A DNA stretch of 64,000 bases, from contig NZ_JAINFJ010000002.1 in NCBI RefSeq assembly GCF_019966595.1, positions 517,330 through 581,329 of the forward strand, written 5' to 3'. Shown one piece after another: positions 42,629-63,264 of the stretch (position 1 is its first letter; each line of letters starts with the position of its first letter). Both the position numbers and the translations under genes were made by a program. Below the pieces are notes generated by a model. That model was not told where the DNA came from. It did no database searches and saw only the letters and a list, made by a program, of their open reading frames with translations. This stretch comes from Oricola indica (GTDB lineage: Bacteria; Pseudomonadota; Alphaproteobacteria; Rhizobiales; Rhizobiaceae).

Positions 42629-42643
42629 GCAGGAACGACGACA

Positions 42644-46705: not shown

Positions 46706-46850
46706 AGAACCGTTGGAGCAACTTGGCCAATAGCGGTGCGATATGCGAGGCACAGTTCCCTTTCCGACCCTGATCCGGCGGTTATGCGGCGCGCAATATG
46801 CAGGCCGCAGCGGATGTGAAATAGCCTGTTGCAGTCAAGGAGATGAAATC

Positions 46851-48171: not shown

Positions 48172-49093
48172 CGCCTGCCGTGAAGCGCGAGGCGGTCGCG
48201 CATCTGAAGGCCCGGTTCGGGCTTTCGGAACGGCGGGCGTGCCGGATTGCCGGGGCGGATCGCAAGATGGTCCGATATCAGGCGCAGCGCGCTCCCGATA
48301 CGGAGCTGCGTGGTCGGTTGCGTGAGCTGGCCAACGCGCGTCGACGGTTCGGCTACCGGCGGCTCTTCGTGCTGCTGCGCCGCGAGGGTGAGTCTTCCGG
48401 GACCAACCGGATCTATCGCTTGTATTGCGAGGAAGGGCTGACAGTGCGCAAGCGGAAGGCCCGTCGCAAAGCTGTCGGGACACGAGCGCCGACCCTGGTC
48501 GAGGCGCGCCCTAATGCGCGCTGGTCACTGGATTTCGTTCACGACCAATTCGCCAATGGCCAGCGCTTCCGGGTGCTCAACGTGGTCGATGACGTCACTC
48601 GTGAATGCCTGGCGGCTATTCCGGACACCTCGATCTCGGGGCGTCGGGTGGCGCGTGAACTGACCGCCTTGGTCGAGCGTCGCGGCAAGCCGGGGTTGAT
48701 CGTCTCGGACAACGACACGGAGCTGACGTCCAACGCGATCCTACGCTGGTGCTCCGAGAATCGCGTCGAATGGCATTACATCGCGCCGGGCAAGCCGATG
48801 CAGAACGGCTTCGTGGAGAGCTTCACGGTCGGATGCGGGACGAACTGCTCAATGAGACCATGTTCCGGAACCTGGCCCATGCGCGGGTCGTGATCGCCGC
48901 CTGGGCCGCTGACTACAACACCGAACGTCCCCATTCGGCCTTGGACTACCCGACCCCGGCTGACTACGCGCGGACCCTGACCACCGCAATCGCCCGCCCC
49001 GCTACGCGAGATGAAAGCTCCACGCGTCGGGCGATTGCTCTTCCTGCGCCGATCGGCGTAAACACCAACCTGGCTCCGGTTGCGGCTGGATGA
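48165..49093 (+). pseudogene. IS3-family transposase OrfB with one-base frameshift
   Basis: OrfB carries an HTH-21-like region and an rve integrase core with the DDE acids in WSLDFVHD, VSDNDTEL and NGFVESF. Right after VESF the frame breaks: the text continues in another frame as GRMRDELLNETMFRNLAHAR and ends in NTERPHSALDYPTPADYA. Comparison with the expected NGRMRDEL shows that one base is missing at about 48824. This copy is therefore likely inactive unless the missing base is a sequencing error. Confidence 0.88.
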
Positions 49094-49157
49094 AAGACCC
49101 GTGGCAGGTCAGCTGCGTTCTAATCCGTTAAGAGCAAAAAGACGCCGGCGAGCATGC

Positions 49158-49796
49158 CTACTCACCATTGTTGGTTTCGGTCTTGATGCCGTGGCTCTTT
49201 TAATACTCATAGATCTCGCGAACCGACCTGACACCCGGATCTTCGTCCTCACTTTCTCCACGAGACTGATGCCAATTCGGAATGCGCCCCACAAACGGGG
49301 AGATCAGGTACGCTCCGGCATCGGCGGGCACCCTTGCCTGTTCGAAGCAAAATATCAGCGTCAGATTGCAGTCGACGCCCTCTGTTTGGCGATGCGCCGC
49401 AGCCTGAATGCCCTCCCAGGTGGATGCGATCTTGATGAGGATCCGGTCCTTTCCGATACCGAATTCCTTCTAGGCCTCCAGCAAACGGTATGCATTCTCG
49501 ATCGTCGCATCCCTGTCGAAGGACAAACGGGCATCGACCTCGGTTGAAACCCTGCCCGGCACAAGCTCCGCCATTCTCGCCCCGGGAGCCACAGCGACCC
49601 GTTCCGCGGTCATCTCGGAAGCCCTGGCCCGTCGCATGGCCGGTTGCGCGCCCCAGTCGAGGCAATCCTGATAGATTTCCGTGACATGCGGATTTTCGAG
49701 CGATTTGAGAACGATGGAAGGATTGGTGGTGCAATCGACCGGGTGGATCCGCGCGACAGCCACCACGTCACCAGTGTCCGCGACAACCGTGGTCAT
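49158..49796 (-). pseudogene. Decayed transaldolase
   Basis: From ATG 49796 the frame reads TTVVADTGDVVAVARIHPVD and TTNPSIVLKSLE, the start of a TalB-type transaldolase. It has a TAG at 49470-49472 after LLEA, continues in frame through [18 protein letters not shown] (the Schiff-base lysine region) and [18 protein letters not shown], meets a TAA at 49200-49202, and ends at 49158, well short of the usual 315 residues. Two stops and a lost C-terminus make it non-functional. It lies between the IS and the KDPG-aldolase gene, downstream in the catabolic operon. Confidence 0.85.
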
Positions 49797-49853: not shown

Positions 49854-50477
49854 TCAGTTGGCGGCGCTGCCGCGCACGAATAGCCTGATCTCGTCGACCA
49901 GCGGACCCGCATAGTCGGATTTGAGCATCCATGACCCGCCGACCGCGCAGACGTTGGGAAGCCGCGCATAGTTCGCGAGGACGGAAGAACTGATTTTTCC
50001 CGTCGCCATGAATGTCGTGTCCCGAAAGATATTCGCGAAGTCGGCCAAAACCTCGAGGGCATTGGCGGCTTCGGCCGGATAGAACTTAAGAAGGCGATAT
50101 CCAGCTTCCCGGGCGAACATAACCTCCGATGCCGTCTGCACGCCGGGCACGAGCGGCAATCCGGATTGCGAGACGATTTCGGCAAGCTGCGGGGTCAACC
50201 CCGGGCTGACGAGGCAGTCTGCACCCGCATCGTGAGCCCGGTCGAGAGATTCAGCGTCCATGATCGTTCCCGCCGCAAAGAGGCAAGACGGATGGCGAGC
50301 CTTGGCTTCCCGCAACACATTCGGCGCATGCGGGGTCCGGAAAAGGATCTCCACGGCCGTGGTACCGGATTGCACCAACCTGTCGACCAATTCGAGGCCG
50401 TCGGCGACCTCTCTCGCTGTCACGATCGGCATGATGCCGGCTTCCGCAATCCGTTTTGCGGTTTCCTGCATGTCCAT
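49854..50477 (-). CDS. KDPG-type aldolase (2-dehydro-3-deoxy-phosphogluconate aldolase family)
   Basis: A 207-residue class I aldolase. It would split a 2-keto-3-deoxy sugar-acid phosphate into pyruvate and an aldehyde phosphate. GIMPIVTAREVADGLELVDR, TTAVEILFRTP (catalytic Glu) and LLKFYPAEAANAL (Schiff-base Lys) are diagnostic. ATG 50477 overlaps the kinase stop by one base. With the kinase next to it, the pair covers the lower part of a phosphorylative Entner-Doudoroff-like route; sulfo-sugar variants use the same family. Confidence 0.9.
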   Translation of the reverse strand: MDMQETAKRIAEAGIMPIVTAREVADGLELVDRLVQSGTTAVEILFRTPHAPNVLREAKARHPSCLFAAGTIMDAESLDRAHDAGADCLVSPGLTPQLAEIVSQSGLPLVPGVQTASEVMFAREAGYRLLKFYPAEAANALEVLADFANIFRDTTFMATGKISSSVLANYARLPNVCAVGGSWMLKSDYAGPLVDEIRLFVRGSAAN

Positions 50478-51400
50478 CAGCTTGTCACCTTTTTTTCCAG
50501 AACAGTCATGACCTGACGACGGTCCGGCGCTCCGAGCCTTCCGCCGAAGGTTTCGCATTTGATTGCCGCAGCCGCATTCGCGAAATCGATAATATCGGCG
50601 ATGGGCATCCCCTCCGCCAAGGCGAGTGTGAACGCGCCGTGGAAGACATCGCCCGCCGCCAAAGTGTCTACGGCGACGACGCGAGGCGGCTTGCTGTGAC
50701 GAACACCACCGTCCTCGACCCAGTAACAACCGAGCGGCCCGGCGGTGACGGCGACGAAACAGTCGTAGCGAACGGCAAGCGCCTCGACCGCCTCGGTGAC
50801 GGTTTCGCGACCTGAGAGTGCGAGCGCTGCAGGCTCGGAGAAAACCGCATGGCTGCAAAGTTCTACCAGATCGCCGATCACCTCTTTTGGCGCAACGTCC
50901 GCGTCGAGGACGGCTGGAACGCCGGCGTCGCGGGCGGCGCGCAGGATCGCCGCGGCGCCCTGCGGCCATCGTACGTCCACGAGAATCGCGTCCGCTTCGA
51001 CAACCCTATCGAGCGGCAGCCACTCGGCCCCGGTGGGGAGCGCCTTGTCATAATAAGGCACGGCGAGCCGCTCGCCTTCGGAATCAACCAGAACGGCGCA
51101 TATCGCCGACCGCGCTTCGTCAAATCGCTTCACGAAGCGGCAATCCACGCCGTCCCGCTCGAGATCGGCGACAATCCTGTCACCAGCGAGATCGGCCCCG
51201 GCGCGCGAGATCAGCATGCAATCGCCACCGAGGCGTGCCGCAGCAGCTGCCGCGCTCGCCGCCATGCCATGCGCGACCTCCGCCATTTCGATCGGAAGCA
51301 GCTTGCCGGGGCCCGTGGGCATGTGATCGACGCGGAAAATATAGTCCAGCGTCGTCGCGCCAGCGAAAATCAGGCGACGCGGCGCCTCGTCGGTTCTCAT
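50477..51400 (-). CDS. PfkB-family kinase, 2-keto-3-deoxy-sugar-acid or ketose kinase type
   Basis: A 307-residue ribokinase-type kinase. The start RRLIFAGATTLDYIFRVDHM and the motif DTLAAGDVFHGAFTLALAEG (catalytic Asp) are close to KDG kinases and to sulfofructose kinase YihV-like proteins. The substrate is not resolvable by eye. It lies four bases after the CaiB/BaiF gene and overlaps the aldolase start, so kinase and aldolase are coupled, as expected for phosphorylation followed by aldol cleavage. Confidence 0.9.
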   Translation of the reverse strand: MRTDEAPRRLIFAGATTLDYIFRVDHMPTGPGKLLPIEMAEVAHGMAASAAAAAARLGGDCMLISRAGADLAGDRIVADLERDGVDCRFVKRFDEARSAICAVLVDSEGERLAVPYYDKALPTGAEWLPLDRVVEADAILVDVRWPQGAAAILRAARDAGVPAVLDADVAPKEVIGDLVELCSHAVFSEPAALALSGRETVTEAVEALAVRYDCFVAVTAGPLGCYWVEDGGVRHSKPPRVVAVDTLAAGDVFHGAFTLALAEGMPIADIIDFANAAAAIKCETFGGRLGAPDRRQVMTVLEKKVTS

Positions 51401-51404
51401 GGGA

Positions 51405-52631
51405 CTAGTCCGCTTTCGCTTTGCGCTCCGCGATGTCGGCCTGTTCGATCAGGCCGCGATCGCGCAACTGCCTTATCCTCTCCGGCGCGATTCCGAATTC
51501 GGCTAGGATTTCCTCGGTGTGCTGACCGACCACGGGCGCCGGCTTGTCGATACTCGGCGGCGTCTTGCTCATCCGGACAGCGGGGCCGATGACCTTCACA
51601 GGCCCCGCCGACGCGTGCTCATAGGTTTGAACGAGCCCCCGGTGACGAACCTGCGGATCGTCCATGACCTCGAGATGGCTCTTGATTTCACCGCACCAGA
51701 TATCGGCCGCGAGGAGCGCATCCAACAGGTCCTTCATCGACCACTTGCCGGTTTCTTCGGCGATCGCTGCCCACACCTCGTCGCGATCGTCGTACAGGGT
51801 CTGCGGATCGTTGTACTTCAGCAGGTTATCCTTTCCGAGCACCTCGACCAGCCTGGCGAAAGGGCTCATGGCGATCGAGACCCAGCCGTCCTTGACCGGA
51901 TAGACACCAAACGGCGCATCCATTCCCGGATGCCCGATCGACGAATTGGGACGCTCGAAATTCTCGCCAAAATTCATGACCCAGACCATTTCCTGGTTCT
52001 GGTGCTGGAGAAGCGCGGACAACAGATCCACCTTGATCTCCTGCCCTTCGCCAGTGCGTTCGCGCCAGTGAAGTGCCGTGAGGATCCCGTAGACGATGTT
52101 CAACGCGCCGATCTGGTCTGCAAACCCGGCACCGACCGGGACCGGCGGACCATCACCGCGACCCGTCGCCGCGGCCAGTCCGGTCAATCCCTGCAGCAAC
52201 ATGTCCTGTCCCGGACGGGACACGTAAGGGCCGCTGTCTCCATAGCCCGATGCAGAGCAGTAGATGATCCCTGGATTGATCCTGGAAAAATCGTCATAGC
52301 CATAGCCCAGACGCTCCATCACGCCGGGCCGGAAATTGTGCAATACGACATCGACGTTCTTGGCGAGTTCGTAGATCGTTTCGCGGCTTTCGTCCGCCTT
52401 GAGGTCGATGGCCAGTGATCGCTTGTTCCGGTTCCATGCGAGGAAATTCGGGCTCTCCGTTCCTCCGACCCAACGGTTCTTGAAGGTCATCGTACGAAAC
52501 AGGTCGCCCTTCCCCGGCCGTTCGATCTTGATGATCTTCGCGCCAGCATCGCCGAGAAGCTGCGTAGCGAACGGTCCCTGCAGCAGGTGGCTGAAATCGA
52601 GAACGGTGATGTCGTCCAATGCATGTGTCAT
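51405..52631 (-). CDS. CaiB/BaiF-family CoA-transferase
   Basis: A 408-residue family III CoA-transferase. ITVLDFSHLLQGPFATQLLG and DAGAKIIKIERPGKGD form the CoA-binding start; NVDVVLHNFRPGVMERLGYG is a second hallmark; the catalytic Asp lies in the SRPGQDMLLQGLTGLAAATG stretch. ATG 52631 is preferred over an upstream in-frame start that overlaps the preceding gene. Such enzymes move CoA between carboxylic acids. Its presence in a sugar operon, with an enoyl-CoA hydratase further upstream, suggests that a CoA ester forms during catabolism. Confidence 0.9.
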   Translation of the reverse strand: MTHALDDITVLDFSHLLQGPFATQLLGDAGAKIIKIERPGKGDLFRTMTFKNRWVGGTESPNFLAWNRNKRSLAIDLKADESRETIYELAKNVDVVLHNFRPGVMERLGYGYDDFSRINPGIIYCSASGYGDSGPYVSRPGQDMLLQGLTGLAAATGRGDGPPVPVGAGFADQIGALNIVYGILTALHWRERTGEGQEIKVDLLSALLQHQNQEMVWVMNFGENFERPNSSIGHPGMDAPFGVYPVKDGWVSIAMSPFARLVEVLGKDNLLKYNDPQTLYDDRDEVWAAIAEETGKWSMKDLLDALLAADIWCGEIKSHLEVMDDPQVRHRGLVQTYEHASAGPVKVIGPAVRMSKTPPSIDKPAPVVGQHTEEILAEFGIAPERIRQLRDRGLIEQADIAERKAKAD

Positions 52632-52647
52632 CTTATGGGTATCCTTG

Positions 52648-53817
52648 TCAGTGCAACTGGGCCGCGGTTTCGCAGGCCTTCGCAAAAGTCGTGTTCGCAT
52701 CCGCGATCAGTGCGTCGCGATCCCCGCCGTTCTTCAGCCACCGATGAACCAGGAGGCCCATATGTTCGAAGGCCGGGATGAAGCCATCGAAGCGAGGACG
52801 CAGATAGGCCTTCTCGATTGTCTCCAGCGTGTCTTGAAAGAAGTTGCCGCCGAGCGCGTTAACGGCGGGATCGATCCAGGCGTCACGTAAACCGGGCTGT
52901 CCGCCGGCCTCGAAATAGGCGGTAGCCTGATGTTCAGGCCTGTGAACCCACTTGAGATAGGTCACCGCCTCGTCGACATGCCGGCAATCGGCCGAAATCG
53001 CCATGCCGGCACCACCGAGAATGGCGCCGGCTGCCGGATCGGCGCCCGGTCCGGCGATATTCGCGAATTTCAGCCGCGGGTCAGCGCCCTTGCGCGCATA
53101 ATTGCTGTATCCGAACGCGAACGGCACATAGACGATCTCGTCACCCGACGACATCGCATCGAATGTCGCGATCGGGTTCCAGTCTCGCGATTGCGGTATC
53201 GAGAGGTCGGCCAGCGCCCTGAGATAGTCGAGCACTTCACGGAAAACAGGCCGTTCCACCAGATCGCCCGCGCCTACCTCGATCGGATATCCGAGATTGG
53301 CCGCCATGGTGGCGACGAGACACGCGGAATCGCTCTGGCATGACGGCATGGCAAGCCACTTGCCCGCGCTGCGCGCTTTTGCGCCGAGCGACAAGACCTC
53401 GTCGTAGGTTCGCGGCACCTCGCTGTCGAGGCGCTCGACAAGGTCCGGTCGACAGCAGGCCACCTGGCAGGCCGCATCCGTGGGCATGGCGAATAGTCCG
53501 CCGAAATCATACGACCGCGTCGAGGGACCGACGCTTTGGCGCTCCATGAGGGCGAGAAAGTCCTCGGGAAGGAGCGGCCGGAGATCCTTGAGACATCCAA
53601 GGGTTCGCGCTCTCCCCGTAAACGGATGATCGATAACGAGAAGATCGTAGTCCCGGGCAAGATCCTCGACCGGCTGGACGCCGAAATCGCGCAGGCTTCT
53701 CCGGCTCCACTCGACCCGAATTCCCGGATACTCCTTGGAGAAAGCTTCGGTGTTCTCTGCCAGGGGCGCGTAACCGCGCGCATGATCCCATGTGATGCCA
53801 CGCAGCAAGACGGTCAT
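52648..53817 (-). CDS. Substrate-binding-protein-like protein without signal peptide
   Basis: A 389-residue homologue of extracellular solute-binding proteins (family 1): NTEAFSKEYPGIRVEWSRRS, YDLLVIDHPFTGRAR, LFAMPTDAACQVACCRPDLV and EAVTYLKWVHRPEHQATAYF fit the fold. ATG 53817 overlaps the SMP-30 stop (ATGA), and the protein begins TVLLRGITWDHARGYAPLAE with no hydrophobic signal, so it should stay in the cytoplasm. The longer in-frame extension upstream is not signal-like either. The operon already has a normal secreted binding protein at 60282. This one may bind or act on a cytoplasmic intermediate; that is inference. Confidence 0.85.
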   Translation of the reverse strand: MTVLLRGITWDHARGYAPLAENTEAFSKEYPGIRVEWSRRSLRDFGVQPVEDLARDYDLLVIDHPFTGRARTLGCLKDLRPLLPEDFLALMERQSVGPSTRSYDFGGLFAMPTDAACQVACCRPDLVERLDSEVPRTYDEVLSLGAKARSAGKWLAMPSCQSDSACLVATMAANLGYPIEVGAGDLVERPVFREVLDYLRALADLSIPQSRDWNPIATFDAMSSGDEIVYVPFAFGYSNYARKGADPRLKFANIAGPGADPAAGAILGGAGMAISADCRHVDEAVTYLKWVHRPEHQATAYFEAGGQPGLRDAWIDPAVNALGGNFFQDTLETIEKAYLRPRFDGFIPAFEHMGLLVHRWLKNGGDRDALIADANTTFAKACETAAQLH

Positions 53818-54725
53818 TTGCTTCTCCCCGCCGCAAATACGCGCTGTACCTCGCTCACCACCGGTTCGGCCGACGTGTCGGACTGAATCCGGGTCAGATG
53901 CCACCGGCCAAGATTGGCCGTGTAGATCGCGGACCCCGCAAAGGCGATGTTGGTGGGATGGCAAAGCAGTTCCGCCGATGGATCATGGGCGTAGACCTCC
54001 ACCGCGCCCGCCTTGTCGACCCTGAGGATGCAAGACGGTTCATAGCAGGCGACGAAGAGCGTTCCCTGACCGTCAAAAGCAATGCCGTCCGGTAGCCCGG
54101 GCAAATTGTCGATAAAAGTCGTCGCCTCCGACGGTTCGCCGTGGGCGCCGATAGCGATACGTGTAACCTTTCGCGCGAATGTTTCGGCAACGAACAGGCT
54201 GTTTCCGTCGTCGGAGATGGCCATACCGTTAGCGAAAGTCATCGGCGCGCTCCACCACAGGCCGGCCTGCCCGGTTATCAGGTCGTAGCGCCAAACTCCG
54301 GGGCCGGCTTCGCGCGCTGCAAAGCTGTCTGACACGTAGAGGCAATTGCGGTGCGCATCGACGACCGGGTAGTTCGGGATGCGCATTCCGGGCGCGTCCA
54401 GGCGGGTCAGTTCCCGCGTCGCGATTTCCAGACGCCAGACGGACGCGCTGCGCTGGTCGCACACATAGGCAAATCCGCGCCCGTCGAAGGCGATGCCCAG
54501 CGTAAATCCGCCGGTGGACGCGATCTTCTCGATCGAGCGGTCGCCTGTGTCGACCCTCAGGATGTCGCCTTCCGCGTTTCCGCACCAGAGCGCGCCATCC
54601 GGCCCGATCGCCACGCCCTCCGGGTGATGGAGACGGGGCATCGAGTACTGCCCGTCGAAGAAGATTTCCGCCCTTGAGAGCGGGATGACGGGCTCACCAA
54701 GGCTTGCAGGGGAAGCGAAAGTCAT
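53814..54725 (-). CDS. SMP-30/gluconolactonase-family protein
   Basis: A 303-residue six-bladed beta-propeller lactonase. HHPEGVAIGPDGALWCGNAE supplies the first metal-ligand Glu; FANGMAISDDGNSLFVAET and LPDGIAFDGQGTLFVACYE supply the Asn/Asp ligands of the central site. It would hydrolyse a sugar lactone made by the operon's dehydrogenase. It overlaps the ATPase gene upstream and the binding-protein-like gene downstream, both as ATGA. Confidence 0.9.
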   Translation of the reverse strand: MTFASPASLGEPVIPLSRAEIFFDGQYSMPRLHHPEGVAIGPDGALWCGNAEGDILRVDTGDRSIEKIASTGGFTLGIAFDGRGFAYVCDQRSASVWRLEIATRELTRLDAPGMRIPNYPVVDAHRNCLYVSDSFAAREAGPGVWRYDLITGQAGLWWSAPMTFANGMAISDDGNSLFVAETFARKVTRIAIGAHGEPSEATTFIDNLPGLPDGIAFDGQGTLFVACYEPSCILRVDKAGAVEVYAHDPSAELLCHPTNIAFAGSAIYTANLGRWHLTRIQSDTSAEPVVSEVQRVFAAGRSK

Positions 54726-55795
54726 GCGGCATATCCCCCGGTTTCGAACTCGATCCGCGTTCCGGTCACTCCGTCAAAATAATGCAGCGTATCGCGGTCG
54801 AACCTGATGCCGACCCGGTCGCCCATCCGGAAACCGGTATCCTTGGGCGCCTTGATCGAGACGAGATCGTGGCCGATGCGAACCGTTATCAGCGCAGTGT
54901 CGCCCAGGAGTTCCGCGGTGTAGACTTCGGAATCGAAATCGCCCTCTCCCGGCGCGACAGCCGCCATGTCTTCGGGCCGCTGCCCGATCGTCAGTGCCGA
55001 AGGGGCATTGTCCGGGGCGCGCAGGCGAAAGCTCGGATTGCGCAATTCGCCGTCCGAAACCTGCATCTCGAACAGGTTCATCGACGGACTGCCGAGGAAG
55101 GACGCAACGAATGCGTTGGCCGGCCGATTGTAGATATCCAACGGGGCCCCGATCTGCTGGATTTCACCCTTCGCCATTACCGCAACCCGGTCCGCCAGCG
55201 TCATGGCCTCCACCTGGTCATGGGTGACGTAAATCGTCGTGGTATTGAGTTCTTTCTGCAGATGCTTGATCTGCGCGCGCATGGACACGCGGAGCTTCGC
55301 GTCGAGATTAGAGAGCGGTTCATCCATGAGAAAGAGTTGGGGCGTACGCACGATCGCCCTGCCAAGCGCGACCCGCTGCCGCTGACCGCCAGACAAGGCG
55401 TGAGGGCGTCGCTCGAGATACTCGGAGAGTTCGACGCGATCAGCAGCGGCTTGCACGCGCTTCATTCGCTCCTGACGCGGAACGCCAGCGACCTTCAGCG
55501 GATAGCCGATATTCTGTGCGATCGTCATATGCGGATAGAGCCCGTAATTCTGGAAGACCATCGCGAGGTCCCGCTCACCGGGCGCGAGGTCGTTGACCAC
55601 ACGGTCCCCGATGCGGATTTCGCCGGATGTGAGCTCTTCGAGCCCGGCCACCATGCGCATCGTGGTCGATTTCCCGCAGCCTGACGGCCCAAGCAATACG
55701 AGAAACTCACCGTCCGCGATCTCCAGCGATACGTCATTGACGCCGACAAAGTGGCCCCATTTCTTGACAACGCGATCCAGAGCTACCGAAGTCAT
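54722..55795 (-). CDS. Sugar ABC transporter ATP-binding protein (UgpC/MalK type)
   Basis: A 357-residue CUT1 ATPase. Walker A is GPSGCGKSTT, the Q-loop VFQNYGLYPHM, the signature LSGGQRQRVALGRAI and Walker B FLMDEPLSNLD, with a C-terminal OB-fold regulatory domain (TIGQRPEDMAA). It belongs with the permeases at 58454-60180 and the binding protein at 60282, though separated from them by four enzyme genes. ATGA overlaps join it to both neighbours. Confidence 0.94.
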   Translation of the reverse strand: MTSVALDRVVKKWGHFVGVNDVSLEIADGEFLVLLGPSGCGKSTTMRMVAGLEELTSGEIRIGDRVVNDLAPGERDLAMVFQNYGLYPHMTIAQNIGYPLKVAGVPRQERMKRVQAAADRVELSEYLERRPHALSGGQRQRVALGRAIVRTPQLFLMDEPLSNLDAKLRVSMRAQIKHLQKELNTTTIYVTHDQVEAMTLADRVAVMAKGEIQQIGAPLDIYNRPANAFVASFLGSPSMNLFEMQVSDGELRNPSFRLRAPDNAPSALTIGQRPEDMAAVAPGEGDFDSEVYTAELLGDTALITVRIGHDLVSIKAPKDTGFRMGDRVGIRFDRDTLHYFDGVTGTRIEFETGGYAA

Positions 55796-56889
55796 TGATT
55801 TACCTTGTTCTTGTCAAAGAAGCGGACATCGAAGGGGAGCGTTTCCCGCGCGCCGCCAACATCCTGCAAAACGAGGTCGTTCGCCGACATCTCGACGGCG
55901 GCGACCTCCCGAAACCCTTCCGGCAGGGGTATTGCGCCCAGCGCGTAGCGCACCGTCAAACCGCCGGGACGGTCCAGCGACAGCGCGGTCCGGACCGGCA
56001 AAAGGTTGCCACCCGACCCTGCCGAATACCCGGAACATCCCTCTTCGATACCGAGCACGTTTTCGTGGACGCCGTTCCACGGCGCATAGGTTCGGCCGCC
56101 ATTGCTCATCCAGAGGCTGGTCTGCGACAGCACCGCGGCGTCCTTCAATCCAATGAAAACGAAGCTGTCCCGCTGCGCGACCGCCGCCGACCATCCGAAT
56201 GCCGTCTTTTCCTCGTCGTAGAGGGTGAGGAAGTCTTCATGCTTCTTCGCAGCCGGATAGCTCCGCAGATCGGCTCGGGTCCCGTCCGCAAGTTCGACAT
56301 CGCCCAGGCTTTCGAACTGCTGCGGATAACGAAGCAGGAACGTCGTCCCTTTTTCCGGGGGATCGAGCGGTGCTGCAGCTGTTCGCCCGAACTTCTTGGG
56401 TGAAAACGACAGGCGCATTCCGCCGGGCGCGGCGACCATCGCGTGGTGCGACAGGCTGATTTCGCCGGCGCATCGGCTGAAGCTGTGCTCCTGATAGACG
56501 AAGGGATGGCCCGGTCGCACAGAGATGCGCTTTTCCACGGAGGCTCCTTCAACGGTCTCGCCAAGCGCGAACCGCAGTGTCTTCGCATCATCGGGCGCCG
56601 CGTCTTCCGCAACCAATGTCCATTGTCCGTTTGCGGTCCAGCCATGAGGCGGCGCAGCGGAGCCTTCTGCAGGCGCGCCGAATGGCGCGCAGAGAAAATC
56701 GCCTTCCAGATAGCGCAGATGCGGGGGCGCGCCCTCCGGCACTGTTTCCGGCCGATCAACCCAGGCGGCGCGATGCAGCGGCCGCACCTCTCGGCCGTTA
56801 CGCGCGATGCAGAGGTTCGACAGGATACCACCGAGGCTCAACACCTCGAGGGAAATCCCTTCCGTCGCTAATCTGGTCCGGTCAGTCAC
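55792..56889 (-). CDS. Aldose 1-epimerase-like protein
   Basis: A 365-residue beta-sandwich protein of the aldose-epimerase/galactose mutarotase-like class. EVLSLGGILSNLCIARNGRE, PHLRYLEGDFLCAPFGAPAE, SLSHHAMVAAPGGMRLSFSP (His pair) and NGVHENVLGIEEGCSGYSAG (Glu) are consistent with a mutarotase-fold enzyme. It overlaps the SDR gene by eight bases. A mutarotase ahead of a sugar dehydrogenase and a lactonase makes sense; a different sugar-modifying activity is possible. Confidence 0.8.
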   Translation of the reverse strand: MTDRTRLATEGISLEVLSLGGILSNLCIARNGREVRPLHRAAWVDRPETVPEGAPPHLRYLEGDFLCAPFGAPAEGSAAPPHGWTANGQWTLVAEDAAPDDAKTLRFALGETVEGASVEKRISVRPGHPFVYQEHSFSRCAGEISLSHHAMVAAPGGMRLSFSPKKFGRTAAAPLDPPEKGTTFLLRYPQQFESLGDVELADGTRADLRSYPAAKKHEDFLTLYDEEKTAFGWSAAVAQRDSFVFIGLKDAAVLSQTSLWMSNGGRTYAPWNGVHENVLGIEEGCSGYSAGSGGNLLPVRTALSLDRPGGLTVRYALGAIPLPEGFREVAAVEMSANDLVLQDVGGARETLPFDVRFFDKNKVNQ

Positions 56890-57652
56890 CCTTGATCACC
56901 AATCCGCCGTCGACGCGCAGAATCTCACCCGTGATGAAGGACGAGCGATCGCTGGCCAGAAAGAGAACGGCTTCCGCGACCTCTTCCGGTTGCCCAAACC
57001 GGCCGATCGGGTGCGCTTCGTTCCAACGCCTTGCAAGGTCGTCCGGGTCCGCCGTCTCGCGAAACACCTTTTCGTTGAGCGGCGTCATGATCGTGCCCGG
57101 TGCAACCGCGTTCACGCGAATGCCTGCCGGGGCGAGATCCAGCGCAGCCTGTTGCGTGAGCGCGTTGATACCGCCCTTCGCCGCGGCGTAACCGGCCCAG
57201 CCGTGAAATCCCTTGAGGGCCTGGACCGAGCTCATATTGACGACCGAACCCGCCTTTTGCCTCCGCATGTGGGGCACGACGCATTTCATGAAACGCCAGA
57301 CGGAACTCAGATTGTTGGAGATCACCTCTTCCCAGGCGTCCTCCTCCATCTCGTCGACCACCCCGGGAATGGCGCGGGCAGCGTTGTTGACCAGGATGTC
57401 TATCCGTCCCCAGCGCGTCATGGCCTCGTTCGTGGCATTCTCGACCTGGCCAAAATCGCGCACGTCTGTCGACACGAAGGCCGCAGTACCCCCGTTTTCG
57501 ACAACACTTCGCTCGGCCGCGGTGCCTGCATCCTGATCGAAATCGGCGATCAGGACCTTAGCGCCAGCGTCGACCAGAAGATCGACACATGCGCGCCCAA
57601 TCCCCATGGCCCCGCCGGATACGATAGCCACTCGTTCATCAAGTTCACGCAT
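56882..57652 (-). CDS. SDR-family oxidoreductase (sugar dehydrogenase-like)
   Basis: A 256-residue short-chain dehydrogenase. VAIVSGGAMGIGRACVDLLV is the NAD(P) loop, ILIADFDQDAGT carries the cofactor-selecting Asp (NAD preference), ILVNNAARAIPG is the NNAG-type motif, and the catalytic Ser and Tyr-x3-Lys lie in MSSVQALKGF and GYAAAKGG. It is the operon's probable sugar dehydrogenase, producing the lactone for SMP-30. Confidence 0.92.
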   Translation of the reverse strand: MRELDERVAIVSGGAMGIGRACVDLLVDAGAKVLIADFDQDAGTAAERSVVENGGTAAFVSTDVRDFGQVENATNEAMTRWGRIDILVNNAARAIPGVVDEMEEDAWEEVISNNLSSVWRFMKCVVPHMRRQKAGSVVNMSSVQALKGFHGWAGYAAAKGGINALTQQAALDLAPAGIRVNAVAPGTIMTPLNEKVFRETADPDDLARRWNEAHPIGRFGQPEEVAEAVLFLASDRSSFITGEILRVDGGLVIKGD

Positions 57653-58435
57653 CTATTTTCCCTTGAACTGGGGTTGCCGTTTTTCGAGAAACGCATCGAT
57701 GCCTTCCTGCCCGTCATCAGAGCAGTAGAGCCGGAAAAGCACCTCCTGTTCGAATGACAACGCGGCGGGAAGCGAGGCGTCCTCGCCTAGCCTGATCAGG
57801 CGCTTCATCTCGGTCAGCGCGAGCGGCGCGACCTTGAGCATCGCCTCGGCTTTTCCTTTGGCGACCGACAGAAGATCATCCGGATCGCACAGCGCCGAAG
57901 CCAGCCCGACCTCGTAGGCCCTTTCGCCCTTCATTCGCCAGGCGGTCAGCAGCAAATCCGCCGCACAATGCCTTCCGACGGAGCGAAGCAGGCGCTGCGT
58001 TCCGCCTCCTCCGGGCGAGAGCCCGAGCAGTCCCTCGGGAAGGCCGAGCCGCGCGCTCGTGGAGACAACCAGAAGATCGCAGCACAAGGCGATTTCGAAT
58101 CCACCTCCAAGAGCATATCCATTGATCGCCGCGATCGTCGGTTTGGGAAACGCCTCCAGCCGATCGTTGAAACGCCGGCCGGCAAACTGGAAGTCCATGA
58201 ACTCGCGTTCGCGACGCCCCTTGTAACCGGCGATATCCGCACCGGCGGCGAACGCCTTGCCGCCGGCGCCGGTCAGGATCAGAACCTTGATCTCGCTGTT
58301 GGTCTCGACCTCGTCCAGTCGGGCCTGCAACTGAACCAGCATGTCCCGGGAAAGCGCATTGAGTTTGTCCGGTCGGTTCAATGTCAGAAGACCGATCCCG
58401 GGAGATATTTCGTCTAGAAGCACCAGAGACGACAT
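57653..58435 (-). CDS. Enoyl-CoA hydratase/isomerase family protein
   Basis: A 260-residue crotonase. The oxyanion-hole strands are ITGAGGKAFAAGADIAGYK and ALGGGFEIALCCDLLV, with the first catalytic Glu in GGFEIA, and GLPEGLLGLSPGGGGTQRLL holds the second. It abuts the SDR gene. With the CaiB/BaiF enzyme it is the second CoA-dependent step in an otherwise carbohydrate-like operon. Confidence 0.92.
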   Translation of the reverse strand: MSSLVLLDEISPGIGLLTLNRPDKLNALSRDMLVQLQARLDEVETNSEIKVLILTGAGGKAFAAGADIAGYKGRREREFMDFQFAGRRFNDRLEAFPKPTIAAINGYALGGGFEIALCCDLLVVSTSARLGLPEGLLGLSPGGGGTQRLLRSVGRHCAADLLLTAWRMKGERAYEVGLASALCDPDDLLSVAKGKAEAMLKVAPLALTEMKRLIRLGEDASLPAALSFEQEVLFRLYCSDDGQEGIDAFLEKRQPQFKGK

Positions 58436-58453
58436 GTTGGATTCCCTATCGGT

Positions 58454-59287
58454 TCAGCCCTTCACCGCGCCTGCGGTGAGACCGGCCACGAACTGGCGTT
58501 GAAGGAAGAAGAAGACTGCGATCACGGGTACGGAAATCATGACGGACGAGGCCATCAGCTCACCGTAGCGAACACCGTACTGGCCGATATAATCGTTCAT
58601 GCCGACTGGCAGGGTTCGCATCTCCTTGCTGGATGTGAAGGACAGCGCGAACAGAAACTCCTGCCAGGTCACGATCAGCACGAAGACGGATGTCGCGACG
58701 ATGCCAGGGCGCGCCAGCGGAATGACGATATCGACGAAGGCACGCAGCGGCGATGCACCGTCGATCGCGGCGGCCTCTTCGAGTGTTCGCGGAACCCGCA
58801 TGAGGAAACCGCGCATCATCCAGATCGCCACAGGAAGCGTTACCGTGATGTAGGCGATGATCAGCGAGGCATAGGTGTCCAGAAGACCCGCGCTGCGGAC
58901 GATCTTATAGATCGGGATGATCATGGCGCCCGCCGGAAAAAACTGCGCAAGCACGACCATCGCGAGAAATACCGACAGTATCCGGTACTGAAAACGCGAC
59001 AGGCTATAGGCAGCCAGCAGCCCCAACGGAATAGTGATCGCCAGCGTCGCGCCGGACACGATCATACTGTTGAGGAAGTAGCGGCGAAATTCAGGGCGCA
59101 ACGCGAGAACATAGTTCTCGAGCGTCGGGTTCCTGGGCCACAACTCCGCAGGTATCGCGAATGCTTCCGTCGCCGGCTTGAAGGAGACGCTCAGCATCCA
59201 GAAGAAGGGCAGGAGAACAAGGGCTGCAACCACGATCTGCAGGACACTGAGACCCGCGATCCTCAGCCGTTTCGCGTGCCGGGTCAC
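58454..59287 (-). CDS. Carbohydrate ABC transporter permease (MalG type)
   Basis: A 277-residue permease with about six membrane segments, starting with SVLQIVVAALVLLPFFWMLS. The EAA loop is EEAAAIDGASPLRAFVDIVI, and the end LTAGAVKG is typical. It overlaps the partner permease by ATGA. Confidence 0.93.
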   Translation of the reverse strand: MTRHAKRLRIAGLSVLQIVVAALVLLPFFWMLSVSFKPATEAFAIPAELWPRNPTLENYVLALRPEFRRYFLNSMIVSGATLAITIPLGLLAAYSLSRFQYRILSVFLAMVVLAQFFPAGAMIIPIYKIVRSAGLLDTYASLIIAYITVTLPVAIWMMRGFLMRVPRTLEEAAAIDGASPLRAFVDIVIPLARPGIVATSVFVLIVTWQEFLFALSFTSSKEMRTLPVGMNDYIGQYGVRYGELMASSVMISVPVIAVFFFLQRQFVAGLTAGAVKG

Positions 59288-60180
59288 GAGCGTACCTCCT
59301 TATAGCCGAAGAAGCGGAACATCATCAGTGATGCAACGACCAGCACCAGCACCAGGACGGAAATCGTTCCGTAGGCGGCCGCTTCGCCGAAGCGGAACTG
59401 CCCGAACCCGACTTCATAGATGCGAGTCGGGAAAATCGCGGTCTTGTTCAGTGGACCGCCGCGCGTCAGCACATAGATGATGTCGAAATAGTTGAAAGTC
59501 AGGATGGTGGTCAGCAGGACATTGACCGCCGCCACCGGCGCGATCGCCGGGATGACGACGTCGATCAGCCGCCTGACCGGCCCTGCCCCGTCGACTTTCG
59601 CGGCTTCGATCTGTTCCTTGTCGACGTTCTGCAGAGCGGCGAGGAAGATCACTGTGGAGAACGGGAACCCTTTCCAGAAGGCCACGAATATCACCGCGGC
59701 CATGGCGATGCTTGGCTCCGCGAGCCAGCCTATCCCCCTGTCGATTGCACCGAAGCGCATCAGAAACGAGTTCACCAGCCCCAATTGCGGATCGTACATG
59801 AAGCGCCACAGAATCGCCACGACAACGCCGGGCAACACCCAAGGCAGCAGCACCAGTGACCGCAGAATTCCCTGTCCGGGGAGCTGCTGGTTCAGCAGCA
59901 AGGCGATGAAGAAACCGACCACATTCTGCAGCAGAACCACGCCCATCGTCCACACGACGGAATTGCGCAGGATCTGCCAGAAAACTGGATCAGCGAGGAT
60001 GCGCCGATAGGTCTCGAACCCGACATATTCCGGCGTCGGATTGATGAAGGAGCTGGCAAACAGGCTTTCCCTGAACGTATCGACCATCGGCCAGTACATC
60101 AGGACCGACACGAGGATCGCGGCCGGCATCATGAAGCCGAAGGCGATCCACAACTCGCTATTGCGCTTGCTGCTGCGCAT
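59284..60180 (-). CDS. Sugar ABC transporter permease (MalF type)
   Basis: A 298-residue permease with about six membrane segments. The first is FGFMMPAAILVSVLMYWPMV, and the EAA loop is IEAAKVDGAGPVRRLIDVVI. It forms the channel with the MalG-type subunit encoded next. Confidence 0.93.
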   Translation of the reverse strand: MRSSKRNSELWIAFGFMMPAAILVSVLMYWPMVDTFRESLFASSFINPTPEYVGFETYRRILADPVFWQILRNSVVWTMGVVLLQNVVGFFIALLLNQQLPGQGILRSLVLLPWVLPGVVVAILWRFMYDPQLGLVNSFLMRFGAIDRGIGWLAEPSIAMAAVIFVAFWKGFPFSTVIFLAALQNVDKEQIEAAKVDGAGPVRRLIDVVIPAIAPVAAVNVLLTTILTFNYFDIIYVLTRGGPLNKTAIFPTRIYEVGFGQFRFGEAAAYGTISVLVLVLVVASLMMFRFFGYKEVRS

Positions 60181-60241
60181 GTTGATTTCCCGGTTCGTAG
60201 CGAACGCCTGCCGTAAAGGCCTATGGCGCCAGAATTGGATG

Positions 60242-60270
60242 TTCGCCGGGCGCAGTCAGCGCCCGGCGAA
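60242..60270 (-). terminator. Perfect 12-bp hairpin between binding protein and permease genes
   Basis: TTCGCCGGGCGC (60242-60253) and GCGCCCGGCGAA (60259-60270) pair perfectly around a 5-base loop, 11 bases after the binding-protein stop. Without a T-run it is more likely a stabiliser or attenuator that favours binding-protein expression, as at 29429-29453 in the other transporter. Confidence 0.65.
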
Positions 60271-60281
60271 GCCTCATTTGG

Positions 60282-61511
60282 TTACAGACCGTCGATCGCC
60301 GCACATGCGGCGGCAGCCGCATCGCTTACGGACGCCGATCCGGATAGGAAGTTCTGCACCATGTTCTGCTGGATCTCGGAGACCTGCAGATACTGCGTCG
60401 AAAGCGGGCGCGGCTTCGCATTGTTGAGATGCTCGAGCATCATGTCCGGCTTTGCGCGGTTTTCCTGCAGGAAGGTCGAGGCCGCGTTCACATTGGCCGG
60501 AATGAGGTCCACGACATCGCCGTTCACATCCTCGCGGGTCATGAACTCAACGAATTTGAGCGCCGCTTCCTGATGCTCGGTGCCTTTATAAACGACAAGG
60601 TTCCAGCCGCCGAACGTACCCACCGCCGTCTTTCCTTCCGGCGCGAAACCGGCATAGACGTCCCAGTCGATCTCGGATTTTTCGAGAGCCGGCTGTTCGA
60701 GCGCGGGCCAAAGCTCGATGGCGAGCGTTCCATTGAGGAAGAGTTCGCGCATCGGCTCGTTGGGCGCATTCAGGATACCGGCCGGCGCGTATTCAGCCAT
60801 GCGCTTGTAGTATTCCAGCGCTTCGATCGCCTCCGGCTGCGTCAACGCGCACTTGCCGTTTTCGTCAAGCACCGTGCCGCCATTCGAATAGATCAGCGAA
60901 TTGGTCATGACGACCGGGTACTCGCTCTTGTTGCCCGTCAGGCCGATCGCGTAACGACCGGTTGCCGGATCGGTCAGTTTGGGCGCTGCTGCTTCCAGCC
61001 CCTCCCAGGTCGAAATCGTTGCCGGGTCGACGCCTGCTTCCTCGAAGAGGTCCTTGTTGACGAATGCAAAGAACCAGACATCGACGTTGAAAGGCACGCC
61101 CCAGAGATTGCCATTGTAATTGGCGGATTCCCAGGCACCGGGGAAAAACGCATCACCGCTGATGCTCGTGCCCTCGATCATGTCGTCGAGCGACAGGATG
61201 GCTCCGGCCTCGGCAAAGGCGGCGTTCCAGATCTGGTCCACGGTCGAGACATCCGGACCGTTACCGGCCTGGACGGCGGTGAGAAGACGCTGCTGATACT
61301 CCGGATAGGGTATCGTCGTCACTTCGACCTTGATGTCAGGGTTTTCCTCCTCGAAGCGCTTGACCGCTTCCTGCTGGAATACCGACAGACCGGATTCCGT
61401 CTGCTGGTTGTCCCAGAACTTCAGGACAATCTGTTCTGCATGGGCCACGGGTGCGGCCAGCATCGTTCCGGCGGAGAGAACCGCCACGCTGAGTGTTTTC
61501 CTGGAAATCAA
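60282..61511 (-). CDS. Sugar ABC transporter substrate-binding protein
   Basis: A 409-residue extracellular solute-binding protein. The best start is TTG 61511, preceded by AGGGAGGAAG; the longer frame from 61544 would overlap the regulator. A Sec signal peptide follows (residues 1-25, cleavage after AHA). IVLKFWDNQQTESGLSVFQQ, EENPDIKVEVTTIPYPEYQQ and GPDVSTVDQIWNAAFAEAGA are family-1 signatures. It is the periplasmic receptor of the importer completed by 58454-60180 and 54722-55795. Confidence 0.92.
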   Translation of the reverse strand: MISRKTLSVAVLSAGTMLAAPVAHAEQIVLKFWDNQQTESGLSVFQQEAVKRFEEENPDIKVEVTTIPYPEYQQRLLTAVQAGNGPDVSTVDQIWNAAFAEAGAILSLDDMIEGTSISGDAFFPGAWESANYNGNLWGVPFNVDVWFFAFVNKDLFEEAGVDPATISTWEGLEAAAPKLTDPATGRYAIGLTGNKSEYPVVMTNSLIYSNGGTVLDENGKCALTQPEAIEALEYYKRMAEYAPAGILNAPNEPMRELFLNGTLAIELWPALEQPALEKSEIDWDVYAGFAPEGKTAVGTFGGWNLVVYKGTEHQEAALKFVEFMTREDVNGDVVDLIPANVNAASTFLQENRAKPDMMLEHLNNAKPRPLSTQYLQVSEIQQNMVQNFLSGSASVSDAAAAACAAIDGL

Positions 61512-61533
61512 AACTTCCTCCCTTGTTACTCGG

Positions 61534-63264
61534 TTAATTTCCAACTCTCTGTTCCGTCCCGATTTCCTCCGGGTCGCTCATCTCGCCGCCCTCATCGGCG
61601 ACGACGACGCTCGAACCGGTCGTGGACAGCTCTAATCGATGCGCGGAGAGCGTTCCGACATCGGTAATCACGGTGTGTTCGCCCGTAAGACGCGCGGCCT
61701 GCACACTTCCCTCCAGCCCGACCACGCTGTGGTCGGCCAGAACGAGGACCTTGCGCGCGGCGGCGCAAAAGCGCCCGCAGACAAGCGCCGAACGCTCGTC
61801 ATCGAAGGACAGCCCGAATCCCGCAGACAGTCCGTCCGGTGAAATCACGGCGTGGTCGACACGGATTGTCGACAAGAGAGACCCGACGCTCGGCCCCACA
61901 AGGGATCGGGTCGAGGCACGATATTCGCCACCGGTCAGATAGACCGTCAGGTTCCGGGCATCCGCAAGACACTCCAGAACGCTTAGAGAGTTGGTATAGA
62001 TCTTCAGGTCGCGACCGATTTCCTTGATCGCCTCGGCGAAGTAAAGCGAGCATTCGCCGCCGTCGAGAAGGAGCGCTTCGCCCGGACGGATGAGATCGGC
62101 CGCCGCTGCGGCGATCTGACGTTTGATCGCCCGAATTTCCTCGGCAACCTCGTCTTCGGCATTTCGCGTCACAAGGGTCGCGCCGAGTTCGGCTGCCCGC
62201 CTCCGCATCGCGGCGGCGAGGCCGCGATACCACTCGTGCGAGGGATAATGCAGCATGAAGCCGATTGTCCGCCCCTCGATGCCGGGTCCCTTGTAGGAAA
62301 ACGGCGCCTCCAGGGATTGACGGACGTCAGGAACAATCTGCCAGACCCCGTCTTCATGCCGATAGAAGCTGTCGAGATTGTCCGCTGTGATGACTTGCGC
62401 CGGGGTAACGATTTCCTCGCCAATGCTTCCGCCGTCGAAGACCGTGCAAATCGAGTCGATAGCGACGCTGCCGACGACCTCCGGAAACAAAGCCAGGACG
62501 GCGCGAAGCGAGCCGCCGGAGGCAAGTTCGGAAAACAGATTTCCGCCCTCGCCCCCGACCGAATATCCAGAAACGGACAGGTCGTGACGCTTGGCCAGTT
62601 CCAAAGTGGCGAGGATGGTGTGATCGTTGACGCCGAAAACGACATTGATCTCCGCGTGCGCATCGAACACATCCGAGACTTGGCGCATCACTTCCTTGAG
62701 AAGCCCGCGACCGTTCACTGTCCTGAAATTGGCGCCGCCGCCGAATTCCTCGACAAAACCCTCACGGAAGCCATTCAGCCTCTCTCGCGTGTTCTGCAAC
62801 CCTTCGAGAGCGACGAGCAGTACCTCGGCACGATCACCCGCCGCGCGAATTTCGCGAGCCGCGTGCACACCGAGTTTCTTTGCTTCGGCGAAGTTCCTCG
62901 GACCGAGATAGACCCCTCCGAGTTGGGGCGCTGATTCCGCGACAAGCAGCGCGCCCTTGCGTATGGCCTGCTGCCGCAGGGTATGCGCCCATGCGCCTTT
63001 GACCGGCGGCAGAATCAGCGCATCGAAATCTCCGGGAGACGCCCCCTCGACTATCGGCGCATCCGCTCCCTTCTGCTCCGCCTTAAGGCGCTTCGCACCA
63101 CCCCGCGTACGGGTGAGCTTGCCCTCTTCCTCGAGTCGAACAAGATCCCGCCGCAACGTCACCGAGGAAACATCATCGCAAACGCCTGCGATCTCCTTCA
63201 GAGAGACGACAGATTGCTCACACAGGAGCCCTAGGATCAGCTCTTCTCGTTTCTCTTTGATCAT
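61534..63264 (-). CDS. DeoR-type regulator with an internal sugar-binding-like region
   Basis: A 576-residue regulator, about twice the normal DeoR length. Residues 1-60 are a DeoR winged helix (MIKEKREELILGLLCEQSVV, SSVTLRRDLVRLEEEGKLTR, GGAKRL). About 70-360 resemble a periplasmic-binding-protein-type sugar sensor of the LacI/ribose group (FDALILPPVKGAWAHTLRQQ, NVVFGVNDHTILATLELAKR, LKIYTNSLSVLECLADARNL follows later). The last 190 residues are a DeoR effector domain (LIRPGEALLLDGGECSLYFA, LTGGEYRASTRSLVGPSVGS, KVLVLADHSVVG). It leads the catabolic operon, and two near-identical TGATCA-containing repeats flank its promoter. It probably senses both the imported sugar and a phosphorylated intermediate. 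Confidence 0.87.
   Translation of the reverse strand: MIKEKREELILGLLCEQSVVSLKEIAGVCDDVSSVTLRRDLVRLEEEGKLTRTRGGAKRLKAEQKGADAPIVEGASPGDFDALILPPVKGAWAHTLRQQAIRKGALLVAESAPQLGGVYLGPRNFAEAKKLGVHAAREIRAAGDRAEVLLVALEGLQNTRERLNGFREGFVEEFGGGANFRTVNGRGLLKEVMRQVSDVFDAHAEINVVFGVNDHTILATLELAKRHDLSVSGYSVGGEGGNLFSELASGGSLRAVLALFPEVVGSVAIDSICTVFDGGSIGEEIVTPAQVITADNLDSFYRHEDGVWQIVPDVRQSLEAPFSYKGPGIEGRTIGFMLHYPSHEWYRGLAAAMRRRAAELGATLVTRNAEDEVAEEIRAIKRQIAAAAADLIRPGEALLLDGGECSLYFAEAIKEIGRDLKIYTNSLSVLECLADARNLTVYLTGGEYRASTRSLVGPSVGSLLSTIRVDHAVISPDGLSAGFGLSFDDERSALVCGRFCAAARKVLVLADHSVVGLEGSVQAARLTGEHTVITDVGTLSAHRLELSTTGSSVVVADEGGEMSDPEEIGTEQRVGN

Follow-up and report, generated by a model that had tools for sequence, protein, structure and literature searches.

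A minus-strand operon in the 64,000-nucleotide stretch of Oricola indica DNA analysed here (positions 517,330 to 581,329 of contig NZ_JAINFJ010000002.1; hereafter the window) joins sugar uptake and oxidation genes to two coenzyme A (CoA) enzymes, i.e. a type III CoA-transferase of the CaiB/BaiF family and a crotonase-family enoyl-CoA hydratase (ECH). We tentatively favour the reading, at somewhat less than even confidence, that it encodes an oxidative, Entner-Doudoroff-like route for a sugar, in a variant that works through a CoA ester. The dehydration of an aldonate is the defining step of such routes, and to our knowledge it is carried out by metal- or Fe-S-dependent enzymes that act on the free acid; here, the aldonate would be dehydrated as its CoA ester. 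The comparative data clearly support such a CoA-ester dehydration step, for which substrate and activity are predicted.

The operon (63264-49854) consists of 13 consecutive, co-directional genes separated by -13 to +101 bp, of which 12 were assigned to families by Pfam and the 13th by its predicted fold (Table 1). An earlier note, made from the letters of the sequence, had ended the operon at position 61511, while it extends to a regulator gene ending at 63264; the note also passed over the gene of a signal-less sugar-binding-protein fold, here called SBPcyt. The short-chain dehydrogenase/reductase (SDR), lactonase, PfkB kinase, KDPG-type aldolase, enoyl-CoA hydratase and CaiB/BaiF protein that it named agree with the family models, and its 'epimerase-like' protein has a galactose-mutarotase-like predicted fold. 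Entner-Doudoroff-type traits are thus present at the family level, i.e. a dehydrogenase (SDR), a lactonase (SGL) and a KDPG-type aldolase. As the note had also stated, the operon lacks an IlvD/Edd- or enolase-type dehydratase: family models and fold recognised no IlvD/Edd, MR/MLE (enolase superfamily), UxuA or UxaA protein among the 13 genes, and Pfam recognised no CoA synthetase/ligase and no thiolase among them.

From gene content, conservation, predicted fold and residues, all of which are observed, we infer the following reactions. The sugar would be taken up by the CUT1-type ATP-binding cassette (ABC) transporter and set to the correct anomer by the mutarotase-like protein; the SDR would oxidise it to the lactone, which the SMP-30 lactonase would open to the aldonate. 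CaiB would then put CoA on the aldonate, and the crotonase-type protein would remove the C2 proton, acidified by the thioester, with expulsion of the C3 hydroxyl, to give, after tautomerisation, a 2-keto-3-deoxy-acyl-CoA. By shifting CoA from this product to the next aldonate, CaiB would make CoA catalytic, like in the carnitine CaiB/CaiD system. PfkB and the KDPG aldolase would process the 2-keto-3-deoxy acid, a task which DHDPS-, RraA- or FAH-type enzymes could take in other operons; the KDPG aldolase, DHDPS-, RraA- and FAH-type families act on such 2-keto acids. As for SBPcyt, our guess is that, in the cytoplasm, it likely holds the free sugar acid or else the product and passes it on to CaiB or the hydratase.

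Conservation of the CoA enzymes in sister operons

Among 397 genomes of the order, 25, Oricola's own included, hold close relatives of the CaiB (E up to 1e-100), and two types of operon were distinguished around them (loci are numbered with the prefix L). Type A (n=12) comprises eleven of these (L078-L087 and L047, with CaiBs at least 67 % identical), to which L100 from a plasmid of Shinella sp. HZN7 was added. All 12 harbour CaiB and the SDR, 11 the ECH and 10 the SMP-30 protein, followed by the transporter ATPase (8/12), the mutarotase-like protein and SBPcyt (7/12 each). The binding protein (55-77 % identical, missing in L082) and the permeases (permease 2 71-85 % identical) are found in 11/12, as is the regulator with its DeoR/Peripla_BP_4/DeoR architecture, which is lacking in L087, an operon cut by the contig start. 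Since most of the set recurs in these 12 related operons, the gene grouping is not due to chance. No canonical dehydratase was found inside any of the 12.

The kinase and the KDPG aldolase are present in just 1 of the 12 type A operons. In view of the counts for CaiB (12/12) and ECH (11/12), the CoA pair is, judged by gene content, the core of the operon and the kinase and aldolase are accessory; the place that the earlier note had given the latter two, in the core of the route, was not upheld. The recognised enzymes of L081, L083, L084 and L085 are even reduced to ECH, SDR, mutarotase-like protein, lactonase and CaiB.

Type B (n=13; L028 and L088-L099) has CaiBs that are 60-63 % identical. 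SDR and CaiB are present throughout, ECH in 12/13, SMP-30 in 11/13 and the mutarotase-like protein in 9/13, together with a fused class I CoA-transferase (11/13), an RraA-type protein (4/13) and an ABC transporter of another kind (identified in L089).

SBPcyt, a signal-less family linked to CaiB

The second SBP-like gene of the operon, SBPcyt, sits between the lactonase and CaiB genes. Its AlphaFold2 model (pLDDT 95.9, pTM 0.92) shows the two-lobed SBP fold and matches known structures over its whole length, i.e. SmoF (7qhv, TM 0.82) and 5iai (Z 39.0, rmsd 3.0 over 376 residues). The chain enters the first strand directly, and no signal sequence is visible on inspection of the N-terminus, for which no predictor was used. 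Concordantly, the first conserved motif, W-x-H-x-R, lies at most 20 residues from the start in 24/24 aligned members and at most 25 residues from it in 37/46 first-pass frames, the other nine being one cut by a contig end and eight with longer N-termini from start choice.

Among 101 genomes of kin, 26 matches reached at least 150 bits (two of them in Oricola's own genome) and the next one 49.5 bits. With 26 invariant columns common to 42 diverse members and no match in an NCBIfam search, SBPcyt is, on alignment evidence, a family of its own with members in at least eight phyla; its annotated genes are labelled as solute-binding or ABC transporter substrate-binding proteins. Fusions joining SBPcyt, CaiB and hydratase genes were not found in the surveyed loci.

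Oricola's own genome harbours a second SBPcyt-CaiB pair about 90 kb off the operon (L041, C22:468500-488490), near ABC transporter genes and an MR/MLE-type match. There is also a second SBP-like family without an evident signal sequence, SBPcyt2 (e.g. L101:17670-18797, L109:15436-16668 and L112:5423-6610), which often adjoins Gfo/Idh and MaoC and was matched in 25/63 of the loci surveyed below.

Survey across phyla

Scanning genome contigs with the SBPcyt alignment and a single peptide pattern gave at least 576 relatives among 595 candidate stretches, of which the best 80 were kept; 63 of these have at least 9.5 kb of flank on each side, and the following counts rest on them. Neighbour families were assigned by tblastn (E 1e-7), some of the queries being drawn from these same kinds of loci, and unqueried families therefore escape; of the unassigned gene-run ORFs, 95/156 (170-600 aa) were scanned, and the 25 commonest of 77 families were listed. 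The record titles of the best 80 name Pseudomonadota, Bacteroidota, Bacillota, Chloroflexota, Acidobacteriota, Verrucomicrobiota, Desulfovibrio and Dormiibacter, to which an SBPcyt on a Streptomyces plasmid adds Actinomycetota.

CaiB was found in 59 of the 63 loci, a hydratase in 60 and both in 57, the hydratase being of the MaoC fold alone in 32, of the crotonase fold alone in 22 and of both in 3. Genes of sugar-dehydrogenase families, counted as Gfo/Idh, SDR or aldehyde dehydrogenase (ALDH), lie near in 53 of these 57 loci, with SDR and ALDH being common anywhere, and a lactonase family does so in 12. In 41/57, no canonical dehydratase was recognised within about 10 kb.

Two controls were drawn from the window's order. 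CaiB lies within 1.5 kb of none of 30 ordinary SBP genes, compared with 15/19 SBPcyt genes in the same order and 57 of the best 80 from the survey. The second control consists of 20 of 96 ordinary CaiB matches from 9 genomes, mostly from the top of the list and on long contigs (L270 and L279 being shorter); Gfo/Idh, lactonase, RhaM or RhaT are near 0/20 of them versus 36/63 of the SBPcyt loci (Fisher p 1.2e-6). An ECH or MaoC gene lies near 7/20 of the ordinary CaiBs, and the CaiB-hydratase link alone therefore means little.

Some of the surveyed loci form sets of their own. Six from marine-type bacteria (L138, L152, L160, L175, L183 and L185, at about 10000-16000) share an SBPcyt-CaiB-CaiB-ECH-ALDH set, followed in L185 by a GH2 protein; the opposite arm of L185 encodes DUF6786 and an SDR. 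A link of this class to agar sugars (anhydrogalactose) was considered and is possible, given that agar figures in the names of some carriers and that some have MR/MLE genes nearby. Module ends with a fucose-permease-like gene run into a gene resembling 3-oxo-isoapionate kinase in L182 (18992-20389; below the cut-off), L180 and L186, and RuBisCO-like proteins make up 5/95 of the scanned neighbours.

Catalytic residues, fold exchange and phylogeny

The nucleophilic Asp of CaiB (Asp174 in the window) is kept in 169/169 aligned CaiBs. The window's CaiB scores 110.2 bits against the L-carnitine CoA-transferase model NF002914 (cut-off 413). In the hydratases, the first catalytic Glu of the crotonases (Glu134 here) is kept in 62/62, and the second acidic position is occupied by Asp160 in the window and by Asp or Glu across type A. 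At least 56 of 87 MaoC matches carry the motif GDFxPHH, in which Asp and His keep their usual spacing.

Crotonase and MaoC (hot-dog) are unrelated folds whose shared chemistry is the addition or removal of water on acyl-CoA. That the slot can be filled by either argues that acyl-CoA (de)hydration is the reaction. Both hydratase types use acid-base chemistry on CoA thioesters, as described in PMC9007349.

In the CaiB tree, most CaiBs of MaoC modules group with those of the marine ECH/ALDH modules (25 rows, support 98/96) and those of window-like operons make up a separate clade (14 rows, support 100/99), while 5/6 non-module paralogs of Oricola's own genome are placed on the window side, between such groups. 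The separation of module CaiB clades by non-module paralogs suggests that similar gene sets were assembled more than once.

Distant operons with 6-deoxyhexose-type gene sets

In a Desulfovibrio metagenome-assembled genome (MAG), a single gene run (L163) encodes a DHDPS-family protein, IclR, RhaT, Gfo/Idh, an amidohydrolase, RhaM of the rhamnose mutarotase family, CaiB, MaoC and SBPcyt; a Clostridia MAG (L131) harbours a similar set, which is split between two divergent arms and includes two CaiBs and a lactaldehyde reductase FucO above the cut-off. The DHDPS family includes several 2-keto-3-deoxy acid aldolases. Both loci contain candidates for all steps of an oxidative, rhamnose/fucose-type route from a 6-deoxyhexose to pyruvate and lactaldehyde bar the canonical dehydratase, for which no match was found within 10 kb on either side; CaiB and MaoC occupy the place in which one would be expected.

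Other distant operons vary the set. That of Sphingobacterium (L130) ends in an L-fucose permease FucP above the cut-off, the model having been tested on L130 only; this protein shares 60-86 % identity with 12 further ones that stand at operon ends. In an Anaerolineae operon (L125), transporter, ECH and SDR are 55-61 % identical to the window's, a metallo-beta-lactamase-fold protein precedes CaiB and an FAH-family protein follows the SDR. A Microvirga locus (L102) has two UxuA-type genes, SBPcyt, SMP-30, SDR and an epimerase, with no CaiB annotated; we rejected it as a gene-for-gene displacement, since its SDR and SMP-30 are just 29-31 % identical to the window's, and regard it as an analogy instead.

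Considering these operons together with the survey, it is possible, if somewhat doubtful, that catalytic-CoA dehydration of sugar acids is widespread, i.e. that, in at least eight phyla, IlvD/Edd- and enolase-type dehydratases are replaced by repeatedly assembled modules of a type III CoA-transferase and a crotonase or MaoC hydratase, with SBPcyt as an integral and perhaps catalytic part.

Alternative explanations

The most serious competitor, which we consider unlikely, is that a canonical dehydratase encoded elsewhere (a nearby MR/MLE or UxaA protein, or an IlvD/Edd paralog) dehydrates the aldonate, CaiB, hydratase and SBPcyt serving another step or substrate of the same glycoside, e.g. an acyl group or a second acid. 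Candidate genes are at hand. An enolase-superfamily MR_MLE gene (44143-45261) and a split UxaA/GarD dehydratase (45258-46418 and 46412-46705) lie on the opposite strand, 4.6 and 3.1 kb from the operon end, respectively (3.1-5.7 kb for the dehydratase-family genes as a whole), in a gene group different from the operon. Furthermore, Oricola's own genome holds seven PF00920 matches and, for the UxuA family, one full and a second, fragmentary match. The search of the genome for the missing dehydratase that the earlier note had proposed found none in the operon and several candidates outside it. With MR/MLE above the cut-off in 8/8 genomes tested and PF00920 in 7/8, genome-wide absence failed as a test, so that we claim absence solely within about 10 kb.

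Several loci also hold both systems: matches to MR/MLE, UxuA or UxaA accompany 16 of the 57 CaiB+hydratase loci at distances of up to about 10 kb, L174 and L191 have UxaA in one gene run together with CaiB and MaoC, and L080 of type A has UxuA, IlvD and MR/MLE matches beside its operon. In type B, a UxuA-family dehydratase adjoins SBPcyt, along with CaiB and ECH, in 3/13 operons (L089, L090 and L093), a count that a farther UxuA would escape in L088, L091, L092, L095 and L097, where the stretch ends less than 2 kb upstream of SBPcyt. The additional class I CoA-transferase of most type B operons fits this alternative as well. Against it stand the 41 loci with no dehydratase in reach and the type A operons with none found inside, the retention of the CoA pair where kinase and aldolase are not kept, and L163 and L131, in which this step alone is lacking within 10 kb.

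Other observations also weigh against a CoA-ester dehydration. The operon has no CoA ligase to prime the cycle, and the 2-keto-acyl-CoA would be a reactive intermediate. L086 and L099 have CaiB and no hydratase match in the fetched stretch, and 5/12 type A operons have no SBPcyt match, so that SBPcyt may be replaceable or encoded elsewhere. Type B hydratases lack the second catalytic acid (Leu, Phe, Met or Tyr instead), a position that differs in solved hydratases too (Gln and Lys in 5z7r and 4fzw). As to repeated assembly, the CaiB of the MaoC module L106 falls outside the MaoC clade on a long branch, and the tree is rooted at its midpoint with several forks open.

It is rather improbable that the operon instead encodes a beta-oxidation-like route for a 2-deoxy or otherwise reduced sugar acid, in which CaiB would form the CoA ester and the hydratase and SDR would act as 3-hydroxyacyl-CoA enzymes before a later cleavage. 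The relatives of the SDR do include 3-oxoacyl-ACP reductases besides sugar dehydrogenases, and the deoxyribonate route proposed for Klebsiella michiganensis (PMC6365646), which such a route would resemble, is a genetic precedent for acyl-CoA sugar acids. However, thiolase and CoA synthetase are absent from the 13 genes, a first oxidation at C1 is indicated by the lactonase and the mutarotase-like protein, and 2-keto-3-deoxy acids are indicated by the window's KDPG aldolase and, in L131 and L163, by the DHDPS-family proteins.

The crotonase and CaiB superfamilies include retro-aldol lyases and racemases, and the CoA ester could accordingly serve C-C cleavage or epimerisation, which we regard as very improbable. 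The missing second acid of the type B crotonases would be in line with a lyase; (de)hydration is nevertheless what MaoC and crotonase have in common, and the MaoC Asp/His spacing is kept. A function of CaiB as an alpha-methylacyl-CoA racemase is disfavoured, since the column that we take to be that of the racemase His holds Gln in 168/169 CaiBs. Lastly, an accidental presence of two enzymes of fatty-acid or aromatic metabolism is barely conceivable: hydratase genes do occur near ordinary CaiBs, but here both are conserved with sugar genes in type A and across phyla, which likewise disfavours a fatty-acid function.

CoA-ester dehydration therefore remains the reading that we prefer. The proposal of the earlier note that the hydratase acts as the dehydratase through a CoA ester gains from the conservation of the pair, the sugar-dehydrogenase families near it, the exchange of folds and the gene sets of L163 and L131, and loses from the loci and type B operons with a canonical dehydratase and from a possible dehydratase elsewhere in the genome.

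Family assignments in the operon

The best NCBIfam model for the SDR is PRK06138 (SDR family oxidoreductase), at 270.6 below its cut-off of 312, and the 'glucose 1-dehydrogenase' subfamily model PRK07231 scores 233.7, above its cut-off of 215. For the PfkB kinase, all 20 NCBIfam models listed are below cut-off, with ribokinase at the top and the 2-keto-3-deoxygluconate (KDG) kinase models far below theirs. Pfam and NCBIfam gave no match at E 0.001 for the protein of the 55792-56889 gene; mutarotase-like structures head the Foldseek list (TM 0.5-0.6) of its AlphaFold2 model (pLDDT 89.0).

Table 1. The 13 genes of the operon, from the regulator onwards, with their positions in the window
Gene product	Position	Strand	Assignment
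Regulator with DeoR helix-turn-helix, Peripla_BP_4 and DeoR C-terminal sensor in a single chain	61534..63264	-	Pfam
Periplasmic sugar-binding protein of ABC transporter	60282..61544	-	SBP_bac_1
ABC permease 1, MalF type	59284..60180	-	BPD_transp_1
ABC permease 2, MalG type	58454..59287	-	BPD_transp_1
Crotonase-family enoyl-CoA hydratase (ECH), putative aldonyl-CoA dehydratase	57653..58435	-	ECH_1 4.7e-57
SDR, putative sugar 1-dehydrogenase	56882..57652	-	adh_short_C2
Aldose 1-epimerase (galactose mutarotase)-like fold	55792..56889	-	AlphaFold2 model
ABC ATPase, MalK/UgpC type	54722..55795	-	family model
SMP-30/gluconolactonase-family lactonase	53814..54725	-	SGL 1.8e-20
SBPcyt, signal-less sugar-binding-protein fold, family linked to CaiB	52648..53826	-	
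Type III CoA-transferase CaiB/BaiF, catalytic Asp174	51405..52637	-	CoA_transf_3 1.1e-103
PfkB-family sugar kinase	50477..51400	-	PfkB 1.3e-44
KDPG/KHG aldolase	49854..50486	-	PF01081; TIGR01182 166.0 bits vs cut-off 156.05

Other features of the window

Directly downstream of the operon (about 49130-49796, minus strand), a transaldolase-like relic with in-frame stops was seen by eye, which adjoins an integrase-core piece (48165-48893). The region beyond (41126-47720, plus strand) contains Tct-type transporter genes (by reading), followed by the MR/MLE gene, the split UxaA/GarD gene (a large part and a separate SAF domain) and a gene for a BKACE (beta-keto acid cleavage enzyme), and is possibly a second sugar-acid/CoA cluster.

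Farther off, a row of five minus-strand genes (13130-20205) encoding a PfkB-like kinase, a 646-aa protein with a HAD hydrolase domain, two Pfam-less proteins (376 and 659 aa) and a PRTase-CE protein could be a conflict or defence-type cluster. At 1095-11055, integrase-like genes and one recombinase-like gene (by reading) flank a VapE-domain protein (4913-7675), i.e. mobile-element remains.

Significance and comparison with known systems

If true, a CoA-ester alternative would explain many seemingly incomplete sugar operons, correct annotations that assign CaiB, MaoC and enoyl-CoA hydratase genes to fatty-acid metabolism, and provide a function for a large family labelled 'extracellular solute-binding protein' yet seemingly without an export signal. 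Judged by title and opening of the abstract, none of the papers among the matches of an open-access search covering few subscription journals dealt with aldonyl-CoA esters or this gene set, and the portion of Price et al. 2022 at our disposal, a study in which missing steps of catabolic pathways were assigned from mutant fitness, makes no mention of such a route (PMC9007349). There is a fair chance of new sugar-acid chemistry.

The operon resembles oxidative Entner-Doudoroff-type routes in that dehydrogenase, lactonase, sugar kinase and KDPG aldolase families stand in one operon, and differs in having CaiB, crotonase and SBPcyt and no IlvD/Edd, MR/MLE, UxuA or UxaA protein. With the L-fucose/L-rhamnose oxidative clusters (fuconate dehydratase, FAH hydrolase, RhaM) there is common ground in Roseibium and Nitratireductor, where RhaM, amidohydrolase, Gfo/Idh and SDR genes adjoin CaiB and SBPcyt; these clusters also contain an annotated L-fuconate dehydratase, whereas none was matched within 10 kb in L163 and L131.

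In carnitine metabolism, the type III CoA-transferase CaiB swaps CoA between substrate and product and the hydratase CaiD acts on the CoA ester (PMC3680233). The likeness extends to the nucleophilic Asp of the transferase and the catalytic Glu of the crotonase-fold hydratase; in contrast, the operon has no CaiC ligase, CaiA or CaiT and harbours sugar transport and oxidation genes instead. For K. michiganensis, sugar acids as CoA esters were proposed from mutant fitness, with other enzymes (PMC6365646). That deoxyribonate pathway shares with our proposal the sugar acid as a putative CoA ester and a lactonase in the cluster; as described there, it has a CoA synthetase, a beta-hydroxyacyl-CoA dehydrogenase, a thiolase and another CoA-transferase, while the operon combines a type III CoA-transferase with a hydratase and has no thiolase. 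Finally, SBPcyt has the fold of ABC sugar-binding proteins such as SmoF (7qhv, 7ofy) over its whole length, and is set apart from them by having no visible signal sequence, by its linkage to CaiB and hydratases and by 26 invariant residues of its own.

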